A stretch of 38,687 nt of DNA from Planctomycetota bacterium (GTDB lineage: Bacteria > Planctomycetota > Phycisphaerae > WQYP01): NCBI GenBank assembly GCA_021810145.1, contig JAJZJL010000031.1, positions 1 through 38,687 of the forward strand. The letters run 5' to 3'. Below the pieces are notes generated by a model. It did no database searches. It was not told the DNA's origin and was given only the letters and a program-made list of their open reading frames with translations. The position numbers and the translations under genes were made by a program. Positions 6,243 through 37,999 of the stretch are shown one piece after another. How positions within the stretch are numbered: the stretch's first letter is position 1; every line of letters begins with the position of its first letter.

Positions 6243-7175
6243 TTACCAGCCCATGACCAGTCCCGCCTGAACTTCGATCCTGGGATGTATCTGCGACATC
6301 GGTTGCCACACTACCGCACCATCGTTATATAACTCGTGCGCGCCGGTTGGCAGGTCGTTGTTGTTCTCTGTAACATGATCCGAGCTCACGTCACCCGAAG
6401 ACGGGAAATTGGCCAATCCTCTCAACCCAACGGGTCCTTGGAAAAAAACCTCATCCGTCAACAGTATCGTACCGGGCGCGGAACGCGGATTGGTAGCAGG
6501 TTTGTGTTCTGTTTTATAATAATCCGGCAGGTAGACATAAGAGCTTACATAGGCGTTCGCCGGCTCACCTACCTGCTGCAGATAAGCGCCCGCCTGGTCC
6601 TCACCGGGACTGTAGGAATCTTTATCCCGATCTAGCCAGTAACAATATCCGCTATAGGAGTCGCTCCAGTTGGTGGCCAACCCATTGGTATAAAAATTTG
6701 CAGGAAAAAAGGCTGATTGGTTGAATCCTCCGGGTTGCGTGGAAAACATTAGAGACAACCCCTGCGGACTGGGGGTGAGGATACCCGGTCGTGGATTGAC
6801 CATGGTATCGCCAACGGTTCCAAAAGAATCGTAGTAAAGCAGACCGAATCCCCATGTCGGATAATTTGTCCAAACCCCCTTGGCGGAATCGTATCCCCCA
6901 TAGGTTCCAAATGGCCAGTCGCCGGTATTGGAAAGTGGGTACACCCCTCTGAATTCATTAGCGTACTCTTGCATAGCGATCCCGTCCTGTTGCATATTGG
7001 AAGCACACTGGATTCGCAATGCCAAGCTTTTCGCCCGCGCCAAGGCCGGCAGCAGCAACGCAATCAACAGGGCGATAATCGAAATCACAACCAAAAGCTC
7101 TATGAGAGTAAAACCCTTGCTTAAATTCCGGTTCGAAGCAACCCTGCGATACGGGTAAAGTTCAGAAATGATCAT
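6243..7175 (-). CDS. Prepilin-type N-terminal cleavage/methylation domain protein (DUF1559-like pseudopilin)
   Basis: [30 protein letters not shown] near N-terminus; [13 protein letters not shown] and [23 protein letters not shown]-terminal family motifs. Confidence 0.9.
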
Positions 7176-7303
7176 AGTCAGTCACCTTTCATTGAAAAAA
7201 GGACAAAAAGCTTGCCGACATACACCGCCAAATATCTGGATTTACAATATGCAACAAACCATTCTCATAACGAACGCCTGCCTTAATTCCGTTTTCTTTA
7301 ACT

Positions 7304-16855: not shown

Positions 16856-17938
16856 TTACCACGCGAAGTAAAAACCCTTGCCGTAGGAAACTTTCTCCAT
16901 TGTGCGTACCCTGACCTGTGACATCGGCTGCCATACCACCGCGCCTTCGTTATACAGTTCGTGCACGCCATCCGGCAAATAGTTGTTATTGGATGTATCG
17001 ACGTGGTTGGATGCCGGTGTGTAAGCGGAACCTTGGCCGTTTGGGGCCTGTCCCCATGTCGCTGATTTACCCATGTACGGCGGTGCCTTGTCGGGCGAAA
17101 GCCCCAGTGGGCTTATAAGCGCGACATCGGAAGCGAGAAGCTCGCCGGGATTGGATTGCGGATTTTCCGCTGGCATGTGGCCTGTTTGGGTATTGTAGAA
17201 AGTCCAGGAGCGGTAGTTGGGCAACCTCGGATGGGGACCAGCCGCAAGCTCACGTACACGCATATCGTAGGCCTTACTGTAACCCGTTGGAAAGTTGGAG
17301 CCCGGGGGCGACCTGCCTGTTCCACGGTCCACCCAGTAGCAGTACCCGCTGTAAAAGTCCCAACGGTCAAGCAGGCCCGTGCCGGGATCGTAAAAGTTCG
17401 GCTTTATCTGGTTCGCCTGGCTGATCACGCCTGGCTGCGTGGAAAAGAGCAGCGAAATACCATTCGCACTGGGCGTAAGGATACCGGGTCGAACATCGAC
17501 CATCTGTTTATTGACCACACCAAAGCTTTCATTGTAAAGCAGGGAAAATCCCCATTGTGCAACAACGTTTCTCCTCGTACTGGTGCGGAATCCACCGAAG
17601 GGGAGCATATTATCGTTCGTCACGGGATAACCCCCGTACTCATTGAAATATTCCTGCATCGCGACGCCGATTTGCCGCAGGTTTGAAGCACAGCCGATTT
17701 GCAGCGCCAAATCCCGCGCCCGTACGATAGCCGGCAACAGCAACGCAATCAGCAGGCCAATAATGGCGGTAACGACCAGCAATTCTGTGACGGTAAACGC
17801 CGGCGGCCGCGGCGACCTCAGTGGCCAAGGAGCAACGATCAATGAACCGGATGGCAGCGCCAGTCTTAACATTGGATGAACGCCTATGTTACTAATCTGC
17901 GGCTCACCATCCAGATTCGCGCGATGTCCGATTTTCAT
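16856..17938 (-). CDS. Prepilin-type (DUF1559-like) pseudopilin, atypical cleavage site
   Basis: [126 protein letters not shown]. Confidence 0.88.
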   Translation of the reverse strand: MKIGHRANLDGEPQISNIGVHPMLRLALPSGSLIVAPWPLRSPRPPAFTVTELLVVTAIIGLLIALLLPAIVRARDLALQIGCASNLRQIGVAMQEYFNEYGGYPVTNDNMLPFGGFRTSTRRNVVAQWGFSLLYNESFGVVNKQMVDVRPGILTPSANGISLLFSTQPGVISQANQIKPNFYDPGTGLLDRWDFYSGYCYWVDRGTGRSPPGSNFPTGYSKAYDMRVRELAAGPHPRLPNYRSWTFYNTQTGHMPAENPQSNPGELLASDVALISPLGLSPDKAPPYMGKSATWGQAPNGQGSAYTPASNHVDTSNNNYLPDGVHELYNEGAVVWQPMSQVRVRTMEKVSYGKGFYFAW

Positions 17939-17988: not shown

Positions 17989-18650
17989 TCATTGCCCATT
18001 TGGCCATTGTACCGCGTCAGTACCACCTGCAGTTTCACGATGATACGCCGCTATGTTCATCCATTGTGGGTTCATAGCCGAACGGCCAGTGGCTACGCGA
18101 TGTACAATTCCATCACGCAATTCCACAACAATGGGCGTTGTGGCGAACCACTGGTGACCGGCGTCCAGCGTTGCGTGCAGGGGGAGGTCGGAATGAAAAA
18201 GCCCTCGCGTGGAAATACCGGCACCGGATGGCACACGGATGAACGCAACATGGGCACGTTTTCCAGGAAGCGTTTCCCGTTGTGCCAACTGCTCGTAAAC
18301 CGGGATCGTCTGCTGGCATTCACCACAACCGGCATGATACAACACGATGATCCAATTGCCGGTTGCAAATTGCTGGCCCAATGGCCTGTTGCCGCGCTGG
18401 CTCACAATATGCGCCAGCACCGGAAGCCGATGGCGCAGCCATTTGTGCGGTTCCAAGATCACCAACTTTCCGCTGTCAGCCGTCGCCAGTCCGTTGGCTG
18501 CAACCGCCAATTTGGGGCGCAACATCGCCGACGCGATCCCGGCGGCCAAGCCAATTCCCAACGCTGCCACAACGGGCCATTTTCGGCTTGCCCAACGGCT
18601 TGGAGCCACAGCAGATTTGCCGCAGGCTTGGCCAGAAAAACCAGTGCCAG
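17989..18650 (-). CDS. Thioredoxin-like domain, 3' part of a split MauE-thioredoxin gene
   Basis: Within ORF 17989..18825: KWPVVAALGIGLAAGIASAM (TM), LVILEPHKWLRHRLPVLAHI, FATGNWIIVLYHAGCGECQQTIPVYEQLA (CxxC). Frame differs from the upstream MauE part; 5' boundary approximate. Confidence 0.7.
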
Positions 18651-19049
18651 AACGGCTGCGACATCCAAAACCACCGTAAACCACGGGTTCACCTTCACCT
18701 GCCCAAAGCAGCCGCAATCGGTTTTGCCGGCAAGAGCTTCGTAGAACGTGTAACACGCAAACACACTGAAACAGCCAATGGCAACCCGCCGCGCGGCTTC
18801 TGGCAGCGCTCCGCTGATAAGCCACAGACCGAGGAATAATTCGCTTCCGATCGAGGCCAGATCAAACCATGGAACGCGTTGCCGGTCGGGATGGTGAATG
18901 AATTCTATAACTTTCAGCAGTGCGGCAATAGACAAGGTCACCCCGACGGCCGGCGGTATAATGGTTACCATGAGGCTTTTCCGGAAGTCATGGCGCACAA
19001 TGAACCATCCTGCGCCAATATCCATCGGGGCTTTTTCCATGTTGTTCAT
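18459..19049 (-). CDS. MauE/DoxX-family redox-associated membrane protein (5' part of split gene)
   Basis: LLKVIEFIHHPDRQRVPWFDLASIGSELFLGLWLISGALPEAARRVAIGCFSVFACYTFYEALAGKTDCGCFGQVKVNPWFTVVLDVAAVLALVFLAKP. ATGA overlap with the DUF1573 gene stop. C-terminal about 45 aa are likely out of frame. Confidence 0.78.
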   Translation of the reverse strand: MNNMEKAPMDIGAGWFIVRHDFRKSLMVTIIPPAVGVTLSIAALLKVIEFIHHPDRQRVPWFDLASIGSELFLGLWLISGALPEAARRVAIGCFSVFACYTFYEALAGKTDCGCFGQVKVNPWFTVVLDVAAVLALVFLAKPAANLLWLQAVGQAENGPLWQRWELAWPPGSRRRCCAPNWRLQPTDWRRLTAESW

Positions 19050-20140
19050 TTTTCATCCGCCCCAATCTTGCTTTGCGGAACGACTGCGAGATACGCCACG
19101 CGAAGCGCATAATTCCGGCCGGCGTAGCCGACCGATATGGTCATTTGCCCCGTGGCGTCTCCGGAACTTTTTCCGGCAGTGTAAAAGGTAGTGACTACCG
19201 GTCTTTCTGGCGTGCCGGTGACGCGATCGGAAAACCCACGTGGATTAGAATATATAACGCCTAGGACCTTGATCGGCAGCTTTTCCGCGGCATTCGCCGG
19301 GAGGATCGAAATCCGAGATGTCGTTTGTGCTCCGCTTCGCACAGGCCCCAAAAGCACAGCGTAAGTGGAGAGGCATAATGGTCCCCGAGCATCCACCTCG
19401 ACGGGCAGGGACATCTGATAGTTTTGCGCCGTGTCATTGTTCCAAAATGTGAAGATTATATGACTGACTATCTGGCCGAGGAACTTGACTGGCTTATACG
19501 AAACGTATAGAAACCAGTGGCCTTCCCCAACGCGCCGCAGCTTGGCCTGCGATCCCCGATCATCCGACCGGCAAGTGAGGTGATTCCACTGCATCGGTAA
19601 AATGCGGCGCGAGATCGCCAAAGGTCGAAGTGCGATTGGTTGTTGCCCCATATCGACGACTCCAAGCCTCAAGGGGATGGCATTCCTGGGTATATGGAGC
19701 GGGTAGGCGGCTCGAACGCTAAGACTATAACACCATGCAACCAGCCGTCCGTTTATCTGCCCACGGAGAATCGCTCCGAGTTCTTGGCCAACCTGATATG
19801 GGGAAGGATTCACGGATAGTCGCAAGCGGGTTGCTTGTCCGGGGTAAAGCACTGTCTTGCCAAGCTCACCGCGCGTGCAGATGCATGTCGGTTGAAATTT
19901 CGTAAAGCGAAGCACCCCGCCCCATTGATTTCTGATGACAAATGTATGGGTTACCACTCTCCCCGGCAAAGCAGGGGGAAACTGGTATTCAATATTCTCA
20001 ACGATCGCCGTCCCAGGCTGCGCGCCATGGATCGCTTTTCGAGTAAACAATTTTGCCAGCACTAAGACGGTGACTGTAGTAATCGCGACACCAACGAGCC
20101 ATTTCGCAAGATCGTTCCGCCTTTTCATATTCATCGACAT
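19046..20140 (-). CDS. DUF1573 domain membrane-anchored protein
   Basis: N-terminal TM KWLVGVAITTVTVLVLAKLF; GTAIVENIEYQFPPALPGRVVTHTFVIRNQWGGVLRFTKFQPTCICTRGELGKTVLYPGQATRLRLSVNPS, DUF1573-like with Cys pair. Confidence 0.75.
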   Translation of the reverse strand: MSMNMKRRNDLAKWLVGVAITTVTVLVLAKLFTRKAIHGAQPGTAIVENIEYQFPPALPGRVVTHTFVIRNQWGGVLRFTKFQPTCICTRGELGKTVLYPGQATRLRLSVNPSPYQVGQELGAILRGQINGRLVAWCYSLSVRAAYPLHIPRNAIPLRLGVVDMGQQPIALRPLAISRRILPMQWNHLTCRSDDRGSQAKLRRVGEGHWFLYVSYKPVKFLGQIVSHIIFTFWNNDTAQNYQMSLPVEVDARGPLCLSTYAVLLGPVRSGAQTTSRISILPANAAEKLPIKVLGVIYSNPRGFSDRVTGTPERPVVTTFYTAGKSSGDATGQMTISVGYAGRNYALRVAYLAVVPQSKIGADEK

Positions 20141-20235
20141 TTTCCGATACTCAAAGATCGCTTAAGAAGTTCAGTCTGGTCTCGACAAATCGCATCCGAG
20201 AATAATGCTGTAGCTTCCACGATTGAGATCTAGAC

Positions 20236-21342
20236 CTACCGGTGCCGGATACGCTTGTAGAGAAAAAATATCAACGCTCCGCCACCGATCACAATGGCTG
20301 CACAAGCTAGCCCGAACGTGGGCCACCATGATGCCATTGGCTCCCAAATGGCCGCAGACGGCGGTCGGAGGCCGCCGCGCGCGTAAACCTCTCGCCCCCG
20401 CGTTTTCCCGGTTGTAATGGTAAAAATCCGCTGGGCAAGTCTGAAATCAACAGAGAAATCACCATCAGGCAACCGCTTATTAAAGACGCATTTTTGCACA
20501 TCCGTGCGCGAATCGACACAAACTTGGCCCTGCTGGGTATAACCGCGTAACCGTCCGGATTTCATCCAATAGAATGGGTGACCATTAATTATTGTTTTCG
20601 CATACGACAAAATGTCGTAGCGCCAAATCGGGCCGCCGCCCTTGCGATAAACTGATTCCACACGAATGGGAAGGTAGGCCACGTCCCGTCCGAAGAATAT
20701 TTTGAAGAGAAACGGTCGTTTATTCATCGTCCCATTGGCCGGAACTTCCGCAACGGCGCTGTAGCCCGGAGGGACGTATTGCTCCCAATGGGCAACCGCA
20801 ATAATGCGATTTTCCGTCTTTCGGCTGCGCGCTTGCCAGAGCATTATTGCGTAGGAAAACCGTTGATCACTGGTAGTATCGAGGAAACTAACGGGGTAGA
20901 AAAATGGATTCGGTGAAAGCACCGGGCAACTCCGCATGTCCTTGGTGCGAAAGTAAAGGTTACCATCTGCCCGGTCGAAAAAATCATATTGGTGACCGTT
21001 ATAAGTAATGATATAACTTCCTCCAGCAACAAAACCGGGCGATGGTACGGTCTTAACGTAATATTTCCGCCCCTCCGCCTTGTAATGCCAACGAAGGGTG
21101 CCGATGCTCGTTCTTCCGGGCCTCGGCACCGGCAGCAAAGAAACGTACTCTTTCTCTTCAGCTAGAGCCTTCATGTCAACTGTCTTGATCAGCCGATACT
21201 GTCCAAACAGGTTAGCCAGGCGGCCATTAAGGTCCGAGCCATATAGCCGCCCAGCCTGACCCGTATCCATAACCATCACGGCACCGACGGCAAAAAGTAG
21301 GGAGGATTTACAGAAACATGGAAAGGTAATCATTGTTTTCAC
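20236..21342 (-). CDS. Hypothetical exported protein with C-terminal TM anchor
   Basis: N-terminal signal FCKSSLLFAVGAVMVMDTGQA; C-terminal FGLACAAIVIGGGALIFFLYKRIRHR; GTG at 21342 or ATG at 21333. Confidence 0.65.
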   Translation of the reverse strand: MKTMITFPCFCKSSLLFAVGAVMVMDTGQAGRLYGSDLNGRLANLFGQYRLIKTVDMKALAEEKEYVSLLPVPRPGRTSIGTLRWHYKAEGRKYYVKTVPSPGFVAGGSYIITYNGHQYDFFDRADGNLYFRTKDMRSCPVLSPNPFFYPVSFLDTTSDQRFSYAIMLWQARSRKTENRIIAVAHWEQYVPPGYSAVAEVPANGTMNKRPFLFKIFFGRDVAYLPIRVESVYRKGGGPIWRYDILSYAKTIINGHPFYWMKSGRLRGYTQQGQVCVDSRTDVQKCVFNKRLPDGDFSVDFRLAQRIFTITTGKTRGREVYARGGLRPPSAAIWEPMASWWPTFGLACAAIVIGGGALIFFLYKRIRHR

Positions 21343-21631
21343 CCAATTTCATATCTAATTCATTGCATGGTACACCCAGGCGTTTCCCAATGGCACGATT
21401 GGAGGCTCTGCTGACTACACAGCCGGACCATCTACCGAGCGCATCCTGCCAAGCATTAAGCCGCCCCACAACAGGCATGAAAGCGTTCCACGTAGCGTTT
21501 AGTCTGAAAAGCATGTAGCAGCCGCCGAGAGTGTCGCGTCCCGAGTCAGCACTCGGCCACACTAGCCGATGCCGCTGTCAGCCGTTTCGCACGCCGAACA
21601 CATGCCGCGAACATGTCATAATTGGCCCAAA

Positions 21632-21991
21632 TCATGGGGATCCGGGCGTGGTGCATCCTATATTGGCTACAAAGCCGCCGCAATATCCCCCGTCCCACAC
21701 GCCATTTACCAAGCTGTCACCACACCCCGCTGCTCCGGCGTTGTACCCGGAGTAAATCATAGGTAGGGACGCCGCGTCCTGTCCCCCATACTGATCTAGG
21801 ATTTGACATGTTGATGTCGAGATAGAAGGACATTGGTTATTAGCGCTGTAGCACGCGGGACTAGGGATTTCCCCGCGCACCACCACGATTCCTCCGATCC
21901 CTACCGCTAGCATTGTGGCGAGGCCCTTAGCCGCATTCAGCACGGCTCTTCTACCCGTCATGTTGATTCGACTACCAATTGTCTTGAACAT
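21632..21991 (-). CDS. Small Cys-rich exported protein
   Basis: 119 aa; start preceded by AAGGAG. N-terminal RRAVLNAAKGLATMLAVGIGGIVVVRG hydrophobic leader; mature part has six Cys (ACYS, QCPS, TCQI, GCGD, YCGG, GCTT). Confidence 0.65.
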   Translation of the reverse strand: MFKTIGSRINMTGRRAVLNAAKGLATMLAVGIGGIVVVRGEIPSPACYSANNQCPSISTSTCQILDQYGGQDAASLPMIYSGYNAGAAGCGDSLVNGVWDGGYCGGFVANIGCTTPGSP

Positions 21992-22057
21992 GGGGATACT
22001 CCTTGATAGAAACCAACTATTTCACGGATTTCAGAGCATCCGAAATCCGAAATGATC

Positions 22058-22831
22058 TCAATTCGCCGCCATCTTGCGGCGCGAACCTTTTAGCCCTTTT
22101 ACAAAGTTCCGAATAGTGACGGCTTCCAAACCACGGTAATAAAAATGCATGCGGCCCCACCTCAATCCCTTTTCAATTGCCCGCGAGGTCAGTATTCCGC
22201 GCGACCTCTCGGCTGCCTCCCAGCGGCGAAACAGGTCCAAGTGGAAATAGGATTTTTCGGCTATTTGCGCCGCTTCGGAATATTTTGGTATGGAGCCGCA
22301 GCGCGCCATGCACCAACGCAGAATCGAGAGATAGGCGAACCGCTGATTGGCCGCCCATACGGCGGGGTCGCGGTGCTCCAGCAAATTCATAACATGCAAT
22401 ATTCGCCGGGTGAGGGCAAGCCCAACGCCCCCTGTCTTCCCACCGGGCGGATCATCGAACAATTTTCCGGTTGCGCATGCGGCAACCAATTGGTTCCGAA
22501 ATTCACGCCGCTGCGTCTCTCGCTCCTGCCAAGCCCGGTGGCCGAAGTAATAGGGTGCCGGGTGTTGCGAAAGCGGGTCCAACATCGCCGCCTGGAGGAT
22601 TGTATTAATGGAGTAATTTTCCGCCACGCGAATAGCCAGTTTCATCGGCCCACGCACCAGGAACCGTTTCCAGTCCCCGCCCCAGAAATTGACCACCCGG
22701 CTTTGGGCCGTTCCATGCATTCTCGCCAGCGACGCGGTGTCGAGTGAGAAGACCGTGCCAGAATGGTGGGATGCGGCCAAAGGAAGCATCGACACGACGT
22801 AGTCGCGATCGCGATTCTTCCAACATACCAT
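22058..22831 (-). CDS. Hypothetical protein
   Basis: ORF 22058..22876; likely start MVCWKNRDRDYVVSMLPLAASHHSG at 22831. Long ORF with biased composition and no recognised domain. Confidence 0.55.
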   Translation of the reverse strand: MVCWKNRDRDYVVSMLPLAASHHSGTVFSLDTASLARMHGTAQSRVVNFWGGDWKRFLVRGPMKLAIRVAENYSINTILQAAMLDPLSQHPAPYYFGHRAWQERETQRREFRNQLVAACATGKLFDDPPGGKTGGVGLALTRRILHVMNLLEHRDPAVWAANQRFAYLSILRWCMARCGSIPKYSEAAQIAEKSYFHLDLFRRWEAAERSRGILTSRAIEKGLRWGRMHFYYRGLEAVTIRNFVKGLKGSRRKMAAN

Positions 22832-28835: not shown

Positions 28836-29867
28836 TTACCACGCGAAGTAAAAACCCGATCCGTAAGATATTTTTTCCATTGTACGTATTTTAACCTGCG
28901 ACATTGGTTGCCATACCACCGCTCCTTCGTTGTATAATTCATGCACGCCATCCGGCAGGTAATTGTTGTTGGGCCGGTCCACGTGGTTGCTGGCCGGCGC
29001 ATAGGCCGAACCTTGACCACCCGTTCCCTGCCCCCATGTTGCCATGGCCCCCATGTATGTTCCGGGATCGGTTGGCGAAACGCCGCGCGTGCCCATCAGC
29101 GCCACATCGGAAGCCAGAATGGCACCCGGATTGGATTGCGGATTTTCCGCCGGCATGTGGCTTGTATGGGTATTGTAGAAGGTCCAAGTACTGTAGTTTG
29201 GCAATCTGGGATGGGTGCCACCCGCAAGCTCGCGCACCCGCATATCGTAGGCCTGGCTGTATCCTAATGGAAAGTTTGAATTTGGCGGCGCATTACCAAT
29301 TCCGCGGTCTACCCAATAGCAATAACCGCAATAGAAATCCCACCGATTCAGCAAGCCGGAACTCGGATCATAAAAATTCGGCCGAATCTGATTCGGCTGG
29401 CTGATCACACCGGGCTGCGTGGAAAACAAGATTGAAATACCCTTCGCATCAGGAGTAAGAATGCCTGGGCGGATATTCACCATTTTGTTGTTCACCACAC
29501 CAAAGCTTTCGTTGTAAAGCAGCGCAAAACCCCATTGTGCAACAAAGTTGGAGCTTAATGCCGTGCGGAACCCGCCGAAGGGAAGCATATCATCATTGGT
29601 CACCGGAAAGGCACCGAACTCATTGGAATATTCCTGCAGCGCCATGCCGATTTGCCGCAGATTTGATGCGCAAACCATCTGTTCGGCGGCGTACTTCGCC
29701 TTGGCCAGAGCCGGCAGCAGCAATGATATTAATAAAGCGATGATGGATATGACCACCAGCAATTCAATGAGCGTAAAAGCAGACACACTTCGCAACCTGT
29801 TGCTACTGGCCGTATTCGGATCCCACCGCTGCCGGCTGTGCAGCCGATTCAATGCCTGGCAGATCAT
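28836..29867 (-). CDS. Prepilin-type (DUF1559-like) pseudopilin
   Basis: [113 protein letters not shown]. Confidence 0.92.
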
Positions 29868-30047
29868 AGAAATCTCCTTTCGGGCTTGCTACCCGCACAA
29901 GAGAGCGCCAAACACCGGATATCGTCACCCGGTCATTTCGTGCTTCGCTTTTTACTTTTCGGATGCATTTCCTCGCATCCATCCATCACCGCCAAAATGT
30001 CACTTTGCAATTGATTATTCTATGCCAATCTTCCGCGCATCGCAGTC

Positions 30048-34002: not shown

Positions 34003-35028
34003 TTACCAGGCAAAATAGAAACTTTTGCTCAATGTGGCCTCAAGGGTTCGCACCTTTATTTTGGCCATCGGAACGAACGAGACCGAACCGTCATTGTAGA
34101 GTTCATGTTCGCCATCCGGCAGGTAATTATTATTCGGTGTGTCGACATGATTGCACGCCGGCACATACGATGAACCCAGCGTGTTTGGAGCCTGCACGGA
34201 AGCGCCCATGGTGCCGGATGGATCGGTCATAATGGCAATGTCCGACGCCAAAAGAGCGCCGGGGTTCGATTGAGGATTTTCCGCCGGCATGTGTACGGTG
34301 CTGTGGTTGTTAAAAAACTCCCAACTGCGGTAGTTCGGATCTCTGACGCCTTTAAGTTCAATCGATCTCATATCGTAAGCCATGCTGTAACCATCCGGAA
34401 GTGTTGCGCCGGGGGACATGCCTGTGCCACGATCCACCCAGTAGCAATAACCTGAATACCATGCCCAATAATCACAAAGGCCCGTGGATGCATTAAAATA
34501 CTTGGATGTCGGGTCCAACTGATTTCGTTCGGTAAACTTCAGCCCTGGCTCCGTGGAAAAGAGCATGGAGATGCCCTTGGCATCAGGTGTGAGAATTCCC
34601 GGTCGGACGTTAACCATTTTTTGATTTACAACCCCAAACGATCCGTTATAAAGCAGCGACCATCCCCATTGCGCCACACCGTTTCTGGCATCGCTGGCGC
34701 GAAATCCGCCGAAAGGCAACATATTATCATTTGTCGGCGGATAAGCCTGATATTCATTTGAATATTCCTGTATGCCAATGCCCAGCTCTCTGAGATTCGA
34801 TGCGCAGACAATCTGCTCCGCCACACTTTTTGCTTTGGCCAGAGCGGGCAGCAGCAACGCAATGAGTACCGCGATAATCGAAATCACCACCAGGAGTTCA
34901 ATTAACGTAAACCCCGCCGCCGGCATCCTCAACACACCCAGTGATCGCATGATCGTCATTTGTCCCACTTTTTCCTGCGGCCCGGAGCACCTGGAACCTG
35001 ACAATACATTGACAACACAACTTTTCAT
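34003..35028 (-). CDS. Prepilin-type (DUF1559-like) pseudopilin
   Basis: Start MKSCVV at 35028 after [110 protein letters not shown]. Confidence 0.92.
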
Positions 35029-35193
35029 TATGTCCTCCTTTCGAACATTCGATACCATTTAAGTTCACTGATTGCAGCATCCAGCGCCGTTCAGCTTCAG
35101 CTTGTCAATCTTCTTGCACGGACGGGATATTGTTGGCGAGCATCCGCGATCCGATATAAGCAACCATACACATTTCCCGCCGCGTGTGAAGTT

Positions 35194-36768: not shown

Positions 36769-37827
36769 TTACCATGCATAGTAATTATGACCGTTGAAGT
36801 AATGCACTTTCATCTGCCCCTTTCCAACCCAGGCAACAGATCCATCGTTGTACAGATCATGGACACCATCGGGCAGATAGTTATTATTCGGCGTGTCGAC
36901 GTGATTGGAGAATGGAGCCAATCCGGACAATGGTCCTCCAGCGGGTCCCCAATCCCCCATGGCTCCCATCGTTCCGGTTGGATCAGTCATCAGCGCGATA
37001 TCGGATGCCAAAAGAGTGCCGGGACCCGCGGTAACATTTTCCGCGGGCATATGCGACGTGTTGGTATTGAAGTACTGCCACTTGGTCAAATCCTCCAATG
37101 GACTGATGGGGGCACCTCGGCTCTGCAGAATGTTCGACAAGTCAAAAGCCGCACTATATCCTTCCGGCGTTTTTGAAACGATACTGGAATTCGGGATCGA
37201 TCCGGGAGTGTCGCCACCGGTCCCACGATCCACCCAGTAACAATACCCGGACGAAAAGTTCCACTGTTTAAGCAGCCCGGTTGACGGAACGTAATACGAA
37301 TGAGGACCCGAGGAAATGATCTGATTCGGCTGGCTGATAACACCCGGCTGGGTGGAAAAAAGCAAGGCCACGCCCTTCGCATTGGGAGTGAGAATGCCCG
37401 GACGAATGGTCGAAGGCTCCATTTGCTTGCCATTGGGTGCCAGGCCAAAATCGTTCGCACTGCAATACAGCAACGACAATCCCCAGGCCGGAATAAGATA
37501 TCCGGGACTGGGATACCTGAATCCCCCCATGGGGTACATGGATCCAGCGTTGACGGGATAATTACCATACTCGTTGGCATATTCATGCATCGCGATGCCC
37601 AATTGCCGAAGATTTGAGGAGCAGACAACCTGCTCGGCCACATACTTCGCCCTGGCCAATGCCGGCAATAGCAGGCTGATCAGCAACGCGATAATGGAAA
37701 TAACCACCAGCAATTCAATGAGCGTAAATCCACCCGCGGAGCGAATACGTCCGGCGGAACTGATTACCGTTCTTCGGACAGTGCCGTGCCACACACGATA
37801 CTTTGCATGCGACCTCTGACTTGTCAT
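36769..37827 (-). CDS. Prepilin-type (DUF1559-like) pseudopilin
   Basis: Start MTSQRSHAKYRV at 37827. [99 protein letters not shown]. Confidence 0.92.
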   Translation of the reverse strand: MTSQRSHAKYRVWHGTVRRTVISSAGRIRSAGGFTLIELLVVISIIALLISLLLPALARAKYVAEQVVCSSNLRQLGIAMHEYANEYGNYPVNAGSMYPMGGFRYPSPGYLIPAWGLSLLYCSANDFGLAPNGKQMEPSTIRPGILTPNAKGVALLFSTQPGVISQPNQIISSGPHSYYVPSTGLLKQWNFSSGYCYWVDRGTGGDTPGSIPNSSIVSKTPEGYSAAFDLSNILQSRGAPISPLEDLTKWQYFNTNTSHMPAENVTAGPGTLLASDIALMTDPTGTMGAMGDWGPAGGPLSGLAPFSNHVDTPNNNYLPDGVHDLYNDGSVAWVGKGQMKVHYFNGHNYYAW

Positions 37828-37999
37828 AAAACTACCCTTTCCGGCTGTCGCCAGATATCGAGACCCAAAATACCGCACCACCGAACCGACGGTGCCCTGA
37901 CCAATAACTTTTCATTTTCCTCGCCGGAACCGCGACTCAGCGGCCCTGACATAAATCTGTTAATGCTTACTATACACTTCTCCCATGGCAATAGAAGTC

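Follow-up and report, generated by a model that had tools for sequence, protein, structure and literature searches.

In the mau cluster, MauE and MauD mature the Cys-rich small subunit of methylamine dehydrogenase (MADH). The module analyzed here likewise combines MauE and a thioredoxin/MauD-like domain with a neighboring Cys-rich protein for export and with a propeller protein. It differs from mau in that there are no MADH subunits, MauE and thioredoxin (Trx) are fused, a DUF1573 protein, a LolA-like protein and a pseudopilin are added, and many copies with diversified Cys-rich proteins occur. By analogy, the module appears to work like the mau maturation genes and not as a methylamine dehydrogenase system. 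A second relative comes from the decRiPPter study, which in the part relevant here reports three candidate RiPP families in Streptomyces that contain mauE and have precursors with eight or more Cys, and in which a role in disulfide formation is proposed for MauE (PMC7794033). The general idea of MauE next to Cys-rich proteins therefore has a precedent, as the MauE homologs of these mauE/mauD families adjoin small Cys-rich proteins in the same way as here. The planctomycete module adds a large propeller, a LolA-like, likely cognate partner, DUF1573 and the fused Trx, none of which is mentioned in the decRiPPter passage (PMC7794033).

The window, i.e. the whole stretch of 38.7 kb of DNA that was analyzed, is contig C24 of a 4.47-Mb genome assembly, which its closest named relatives place with Phycisphaerae-type planctomycetes. 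The run of minus-strand genes listed in a preliminary description of this DNA was recovered, with every ORF at its expected position. The first ORF of the run (22058-22831, minus strand) had been regarded as a hypothetical gene of its own, which does not hold: It is the 3' remnant, the last ~260 codons, of a gene for a Reg_prop beta-propeller protein of ~900-1150 residues, and aligns to positions 741-1003 of the 1047 positions of our propeller profile (E 4e-93). At the syntenic locus of the species G006 (contig C293, locus L103) an intact propeller gene is followed by the gene for the Cys-rich exported protein (CRP) and then by the ortholog of the next gene. Compared to this locus the window has suffered a deletion of ~2.1 kb (L103 1662-3780) that removed the 5' part of the propeller gene; the upstream region is retained and joined to the remnant at window position 22824. 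For the middle and C-terminal domain of the propeller protein a medium-confidence model was obtained, which gave no significant structural match.

The CRP gene (21632-21991, minus strand) encodes 119 residues, made up of a leader of ~40 residues and a mature part that contains six Cys. Its ortholog in G006 is 78% identical and keeps all six mature Cys, and a dN/dS of ~0.33 between the two indicates purifying selection, so that the six-Cys ORF represents a genuine gene. The concern of the preliminary description that the ORF might not be conserved falls away, since it is both conserved and under purifying selection. Within this ortholog pair 42 of 46 residues are identical in the first mature half, compared to 24 of 40 in the leader. 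An even number of mature Cys was counted in 25 of 28 CRPs (binomial p 1.4e-5, the sequences not all being independent), as expected for fully disulfide-bonded proteins. A scan of 23 CRPs against Pfam and NCBIfam yielded only weak, sub-threshold matches at chance level, and no curated model of a RiPP precursor family was matched by them; as judged from sequence comparison, the CRPs appear to be covered by no Pfam or NCBIfam model. At two loci in other genomes (L102, G006:C11, and L104, G002:C69) three Cys-rich proteins are arranged in tandem, most of them followed by an exported partner of ~330-450 residues, and the leaders of these tandem proteins are far more alike than their mature parts.

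The next gene (20236-21342, minus strand) had been described as a TM-anchored hypothetical protein. The TM segment is present as a C-terminal tail, whereas “hypothetical” gives way to an exported protein with a signal peptide and a predicted LolA/LolB-like domain. The protein has no Pfam match. A Foldseek search with its AlphaFold model (pLDDT 68) retrieved LolA, LolB and DUF1329 structures with E-values from 3e-9 to 6e-4 and TMt values mostly between 0.5 and 0.68, and the predicted LolA/LolB-like fold thereby depends on a medium-confidence model of one partner group. The partner proteins form several groups, some of which have no detectable sequence relation to each other. Compared to the LolA/LolB carriers, with which it shares the predicted fold, the protein is mostly 7-12% identical and much longer, has the C-terminal TM tail in its group, and occurs once per CRP gene.

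This one-to-one arrangement is accompanied by a co-variation of CRP and partner. Similar CRPs have partners of the same group in 13 of 15 best pairs, compared to 2.4 expected. The Mantel correlation between mature CRPs and partners (r 0.77) is dominated by two orthologous pairs, and we therefore prefer the group permutation test without these two close orthologs (10 of 15, p 1e-4). Operons that were passed on vertically can account for part of the co-variation; a counterpoint is that the tandem clusters contain different CRP-partner pairs side by side. We regard the LolA-like protein as the likely cognate partner of the CRP.

The redox genes follow. The DUF1573-type protein (19046-20140, minus strand) has an N-terminal TM segment and a CxC motif (CIC, residues 86-88); its score against PF07610 was 25.5 bits for the single protein, compared to a cut-off of 26.1, and 27.5 bits in the genome scan. 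MauE (18459-19049, minus strand) reaches 38.5 bits against PF07291, with a Pfam cut-off of 27, and its CGCF motif is intact. The Trx domain (17989-18577, minus strand, counted from a putative internal GTG start) is membrane-anchored and only weakly matched by the Pfam thioredoxin model (E 0.12), and its CxxC is intact as GCGEC. The CGCF of MauE, the CxxC of Trx and the CxC of DUF1573 were found in every copy checked. As the reading frame of Trx is open up to 18825 (ORF 17989-18825), MauE and Trx overlap in two frames in the window. MauE and thioredoxin had been taken as a separate pair; in the intact copies they are a single fused protein, encoded in the paralogs by one ORF of 327-379 residues. 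The linker between both domains measures 26 nt in the window and 24 nt in the paralogs, and the window gene is thus split by an indel, with MauE as the 5' part ending early. A one-off sequencing error is unlikely, since the same split recurs in a second assembly, which shows 99.97% identity along 6.6 kb. Located 3' of MauE-Trx is a DUF1559 pseudopilin (16856-17938, minus strand; Pfam), whose ortholog in G006 is 90% identical with a dN/dS of 0.14. The window contains five DUF1559-type pseudopilin genes (6246-7181, 16856-17938, 28839-29888, 34006-35058 and 36772-37911).

With its truncated propeller gene and its split MauE-Trx, the window copy may not work; it is a real but partly decayed copy of the operon. 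The dN/dS values against G006, which are 0.25 for the LolA-like protein and lie between 0.14 and 0.33 for CRP, LolA-like protein, pseudopilin and Trx taken together, do not measure selection since the damage. No structured RNAs were found in the window, promoters and terminators were in no excess compared to shuffled sequence, and defence models (PADLOC) gave no match at E ≤ 0.01.

Eight MauE loci are present in the genome. Three of the paralogous clusters (contigs C21, C19 and C121) have a common order of propeller, CRP, exported protein of ~400 residues, DUF1573 and fused MauE-Trx, the propeller being ~1000-1150 residues long with Reg_prop beta-propeller repeats. A DUF1559 pseudopilin lies 3' of MauE-Trx in C21, in C121 and in several relatives. 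Two further copies, C54 and C29, are rearranged. Blocks of 540-850 bp that are 96-97% identical are common to C19, C29 and C54, which points to recombination between the clusters. These near-identical blocks (L010 6040-6574, L011 3351-4202 and L013 15470-16318) cover the upstream region and the start of the propeller gene. In the C29 copy (L010, G000:C29, 6352-6906) a deletion has joined the propeller N-terminus in frame to the Cys-rich protein. The cluster on C7 (L009, G000:C7, 623-9074) is composed differently, namely of a propeller, a thioredoxin-like protein, MauE, MauD, a 19-Cys protein and a second propeller-like protein. Its layout resembles mau without a match to the MADH light chain, and its 19-Cys protein gave no PDB match with phmmer.

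To judge the neighborhood of CRP and MauE we considered propeller loci across genomes. The intact propeller clusters found initially via MauE-Trx all contain a CRP near the 3' end of the propeller gene; 60 further regions were then added, picked mainly by propeller similarity. To count as a CRP, an ORF had to start at a distance of up to 1.6 kb on the 3' side of the propeller, and its product had to possess a hydrophobic leader, at least six mature Cys and a mature Cys content of at least 5.5%. By this rule a CRP is present in 19 of 22 propeller loci with MauE compared to 8 of 53 without MauE (Fisher p 8e-9 for 75 loci, a value that overstates independence because the loci are related). The difference persists if only loci with at least 4 kb of downstream sequence are counted (16 of 19 with MauE compared to 3 of 30 without, p 2e-7), and the background frequency of CRP-like ORFs, taken from random strand windows of 1.7 kb, is 3.7%. 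The co-occurrence proposed as a check in the preliminary description is thereby confirmed. Among the three MauE loci missed by the rule, L009 and L089 have a Cys-rich ORF further 3', and L120 is the second propeller of a cluster that already has a CRP. Some of the eight CRP-bearing propeller loci without MauE are cut by contig ends or extend beyond the search range.

The propeller is present in 26 of the 61 genomes searched, and only one of these 26 lies outside one bacterial family, to which the close MauE-Trx clade is likewise nearly confined. A CRP is lacking beside the more distant MauE-Trx proteins of other families of the class and beside a stand-alone MauE-Trx on contig C173 of the genome that contains the window. 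This indicates that the link to the CRP is a property of one MauE-Trx clade, and that the enzyme has other substrates in the copies without CRP. The objection that MauE and DUF1573 might occur without any Cys-rich partner applies, for MauE-Trx, to these distant proteins and to C173, whereas in the close clade the link holds. In a further genome (G404), two closely similar operons (L170 and L171) contain the MauE-Trx fusion among type II secretion-like genes of the ATPase, inner-membrane and pseudopilin types. The literature searched contained nothing relevant on DUF1573 with MauE, on NVEALA or on MauE in planctomycetes.

A chance neighborhood, in which housekeeping envelope redox genes happen to lie beside an unrelated small ORF, is hardly credible any longer. 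It could appeal to other MauE-Trx and DUF1559 genes of the genome that have no CRP beside them; the association across propeller loci (19 of 22 compared to 8 of 53, p 8e-9) effectively refutes it, and the gene order conserved in paralogs and relatives as well as the purifying selection on the CRP speak against it, too. We consider it quite improbable that the module corresponds in function, as a remote analogue, to methylamine or amine dehydrogenase, with a propeller subunit and a Cys-rich small subunit matured by MauE and MauD-like proteins, even though the same parts are assembled (propeller, Cys-rich small protein, MauE, Trx/MauD-like protein) and MauE is accompanied in the C7 cluster by a match to MauD (TIGR02661, 6e-12) and by a protein that has 19 Cys and a twin-Arg leader. 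Membership in the MADH system itself was rejected, as the MADH light chain (PF02975) has no match at E ≤ 10 anywhere in the genome and the propeller protein finds its matches in Reg_prop and in the propellers of sensor kinases instead of in the MADH heavy chain. Furthermore, the TTQ cofactor is made from two Trp, and is therefore impossible in the window CRP with its one Trp and in the several CRPs that have none.

Somewhat more room has to be given to a bacteriocin-like or RiPP-like system of diversified, secreted peptides, with the CRPs as precursors or effectors in which a conserved leader precedes a variable core rich in disulfides, MauE-Trx as the tailoring enzyme and the LolA-like protein serving immunity or transport. 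Between paralogs the leaders are more alike than the cores, pairs of CRP and partner stand in tandem (L102, L104), CRPs and partners appear to be matched as cognates, and the three decRiPPter candidate families, as far as described in the passage considered, unite mauE with precursors of at least eight Cys (PMC7794033); two CRPs also show a very weak match to Sublancin (best E 0.0056). We nevertheless regard this reading as unlikely: Neither a C39/ABC exporter nor any other RiPP enzyme was recognized in the clusters, no RiPP precursor family was matched, the leader resembles an ordinary signal sequence, and the first mature half is strongly conserved between orthologs (42 of 46) instead of evolving fast.

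On balance we think it fairly probable that the locus represents a multi-copy module for the oxidative folding and export of diversified CRPs, with a LolA-fold protein as cognate carrier or holder and the propeller as partner or scaffold. The CRP would be exported via its hydrophobic leader. The membrane MauE-Trx fusion, probably together with the CxC-bearing DUF1573 protein, would then form or correct its disulfides, three in the window copy and three to six in most others; this step is suggested by the part in disulfide formation that has been proposed for MauE, by the motifs and by the association. The LolA/LolB-fold protein encoded next to the CRP could serve as its periplasmic carrier or holder, as fold and pairing suggest, and the large propeller protein, deleted in the window, may be the partner or scaffold of the CRP at the envelope. 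Substrate relation, carrier role, propeller role, final location and purpose are what we infer. The adjacent pseudopilin is consistent with a putative delivery of the CRP to the surface, keeping in mind that DUF1559 proteins are numerous in the window. The pairing of a dedicated redox unit with an adjacent Cys-rich protein for export, as seen in the preliminary description, is kept across species and paralogous clusters; the disulfide-maturation/secretion module proposed from it stands insofar as this unit adjoins a conserved CRP, and narrows to one MauE-Trx clade.

A wider and more tentative interpretation, possible but in our estimate rather less probable than the module as such, is that the CRPs form an undescribed, recombining family of disulfide-rich surface or secreted proteins of one planctomycete family, with their own LolA-like escort, a MauE-Trx/DUF1573 machine and a giant propeller, in which cassettes of CRP and escort could be swapped or stacked. 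To our knowledge DUF1573 is a domain without known function, and DUF1573 as well as the MauE-Trx fusions would gain a specific candidate substrate. For the Planctomycetota this would mean a diversified system of exported proteins outside all Pfam and NCBIfam models, and the pairing of CRP and LolA-like protein suggests that the LolA fold may escort disulfide-rich proteins.
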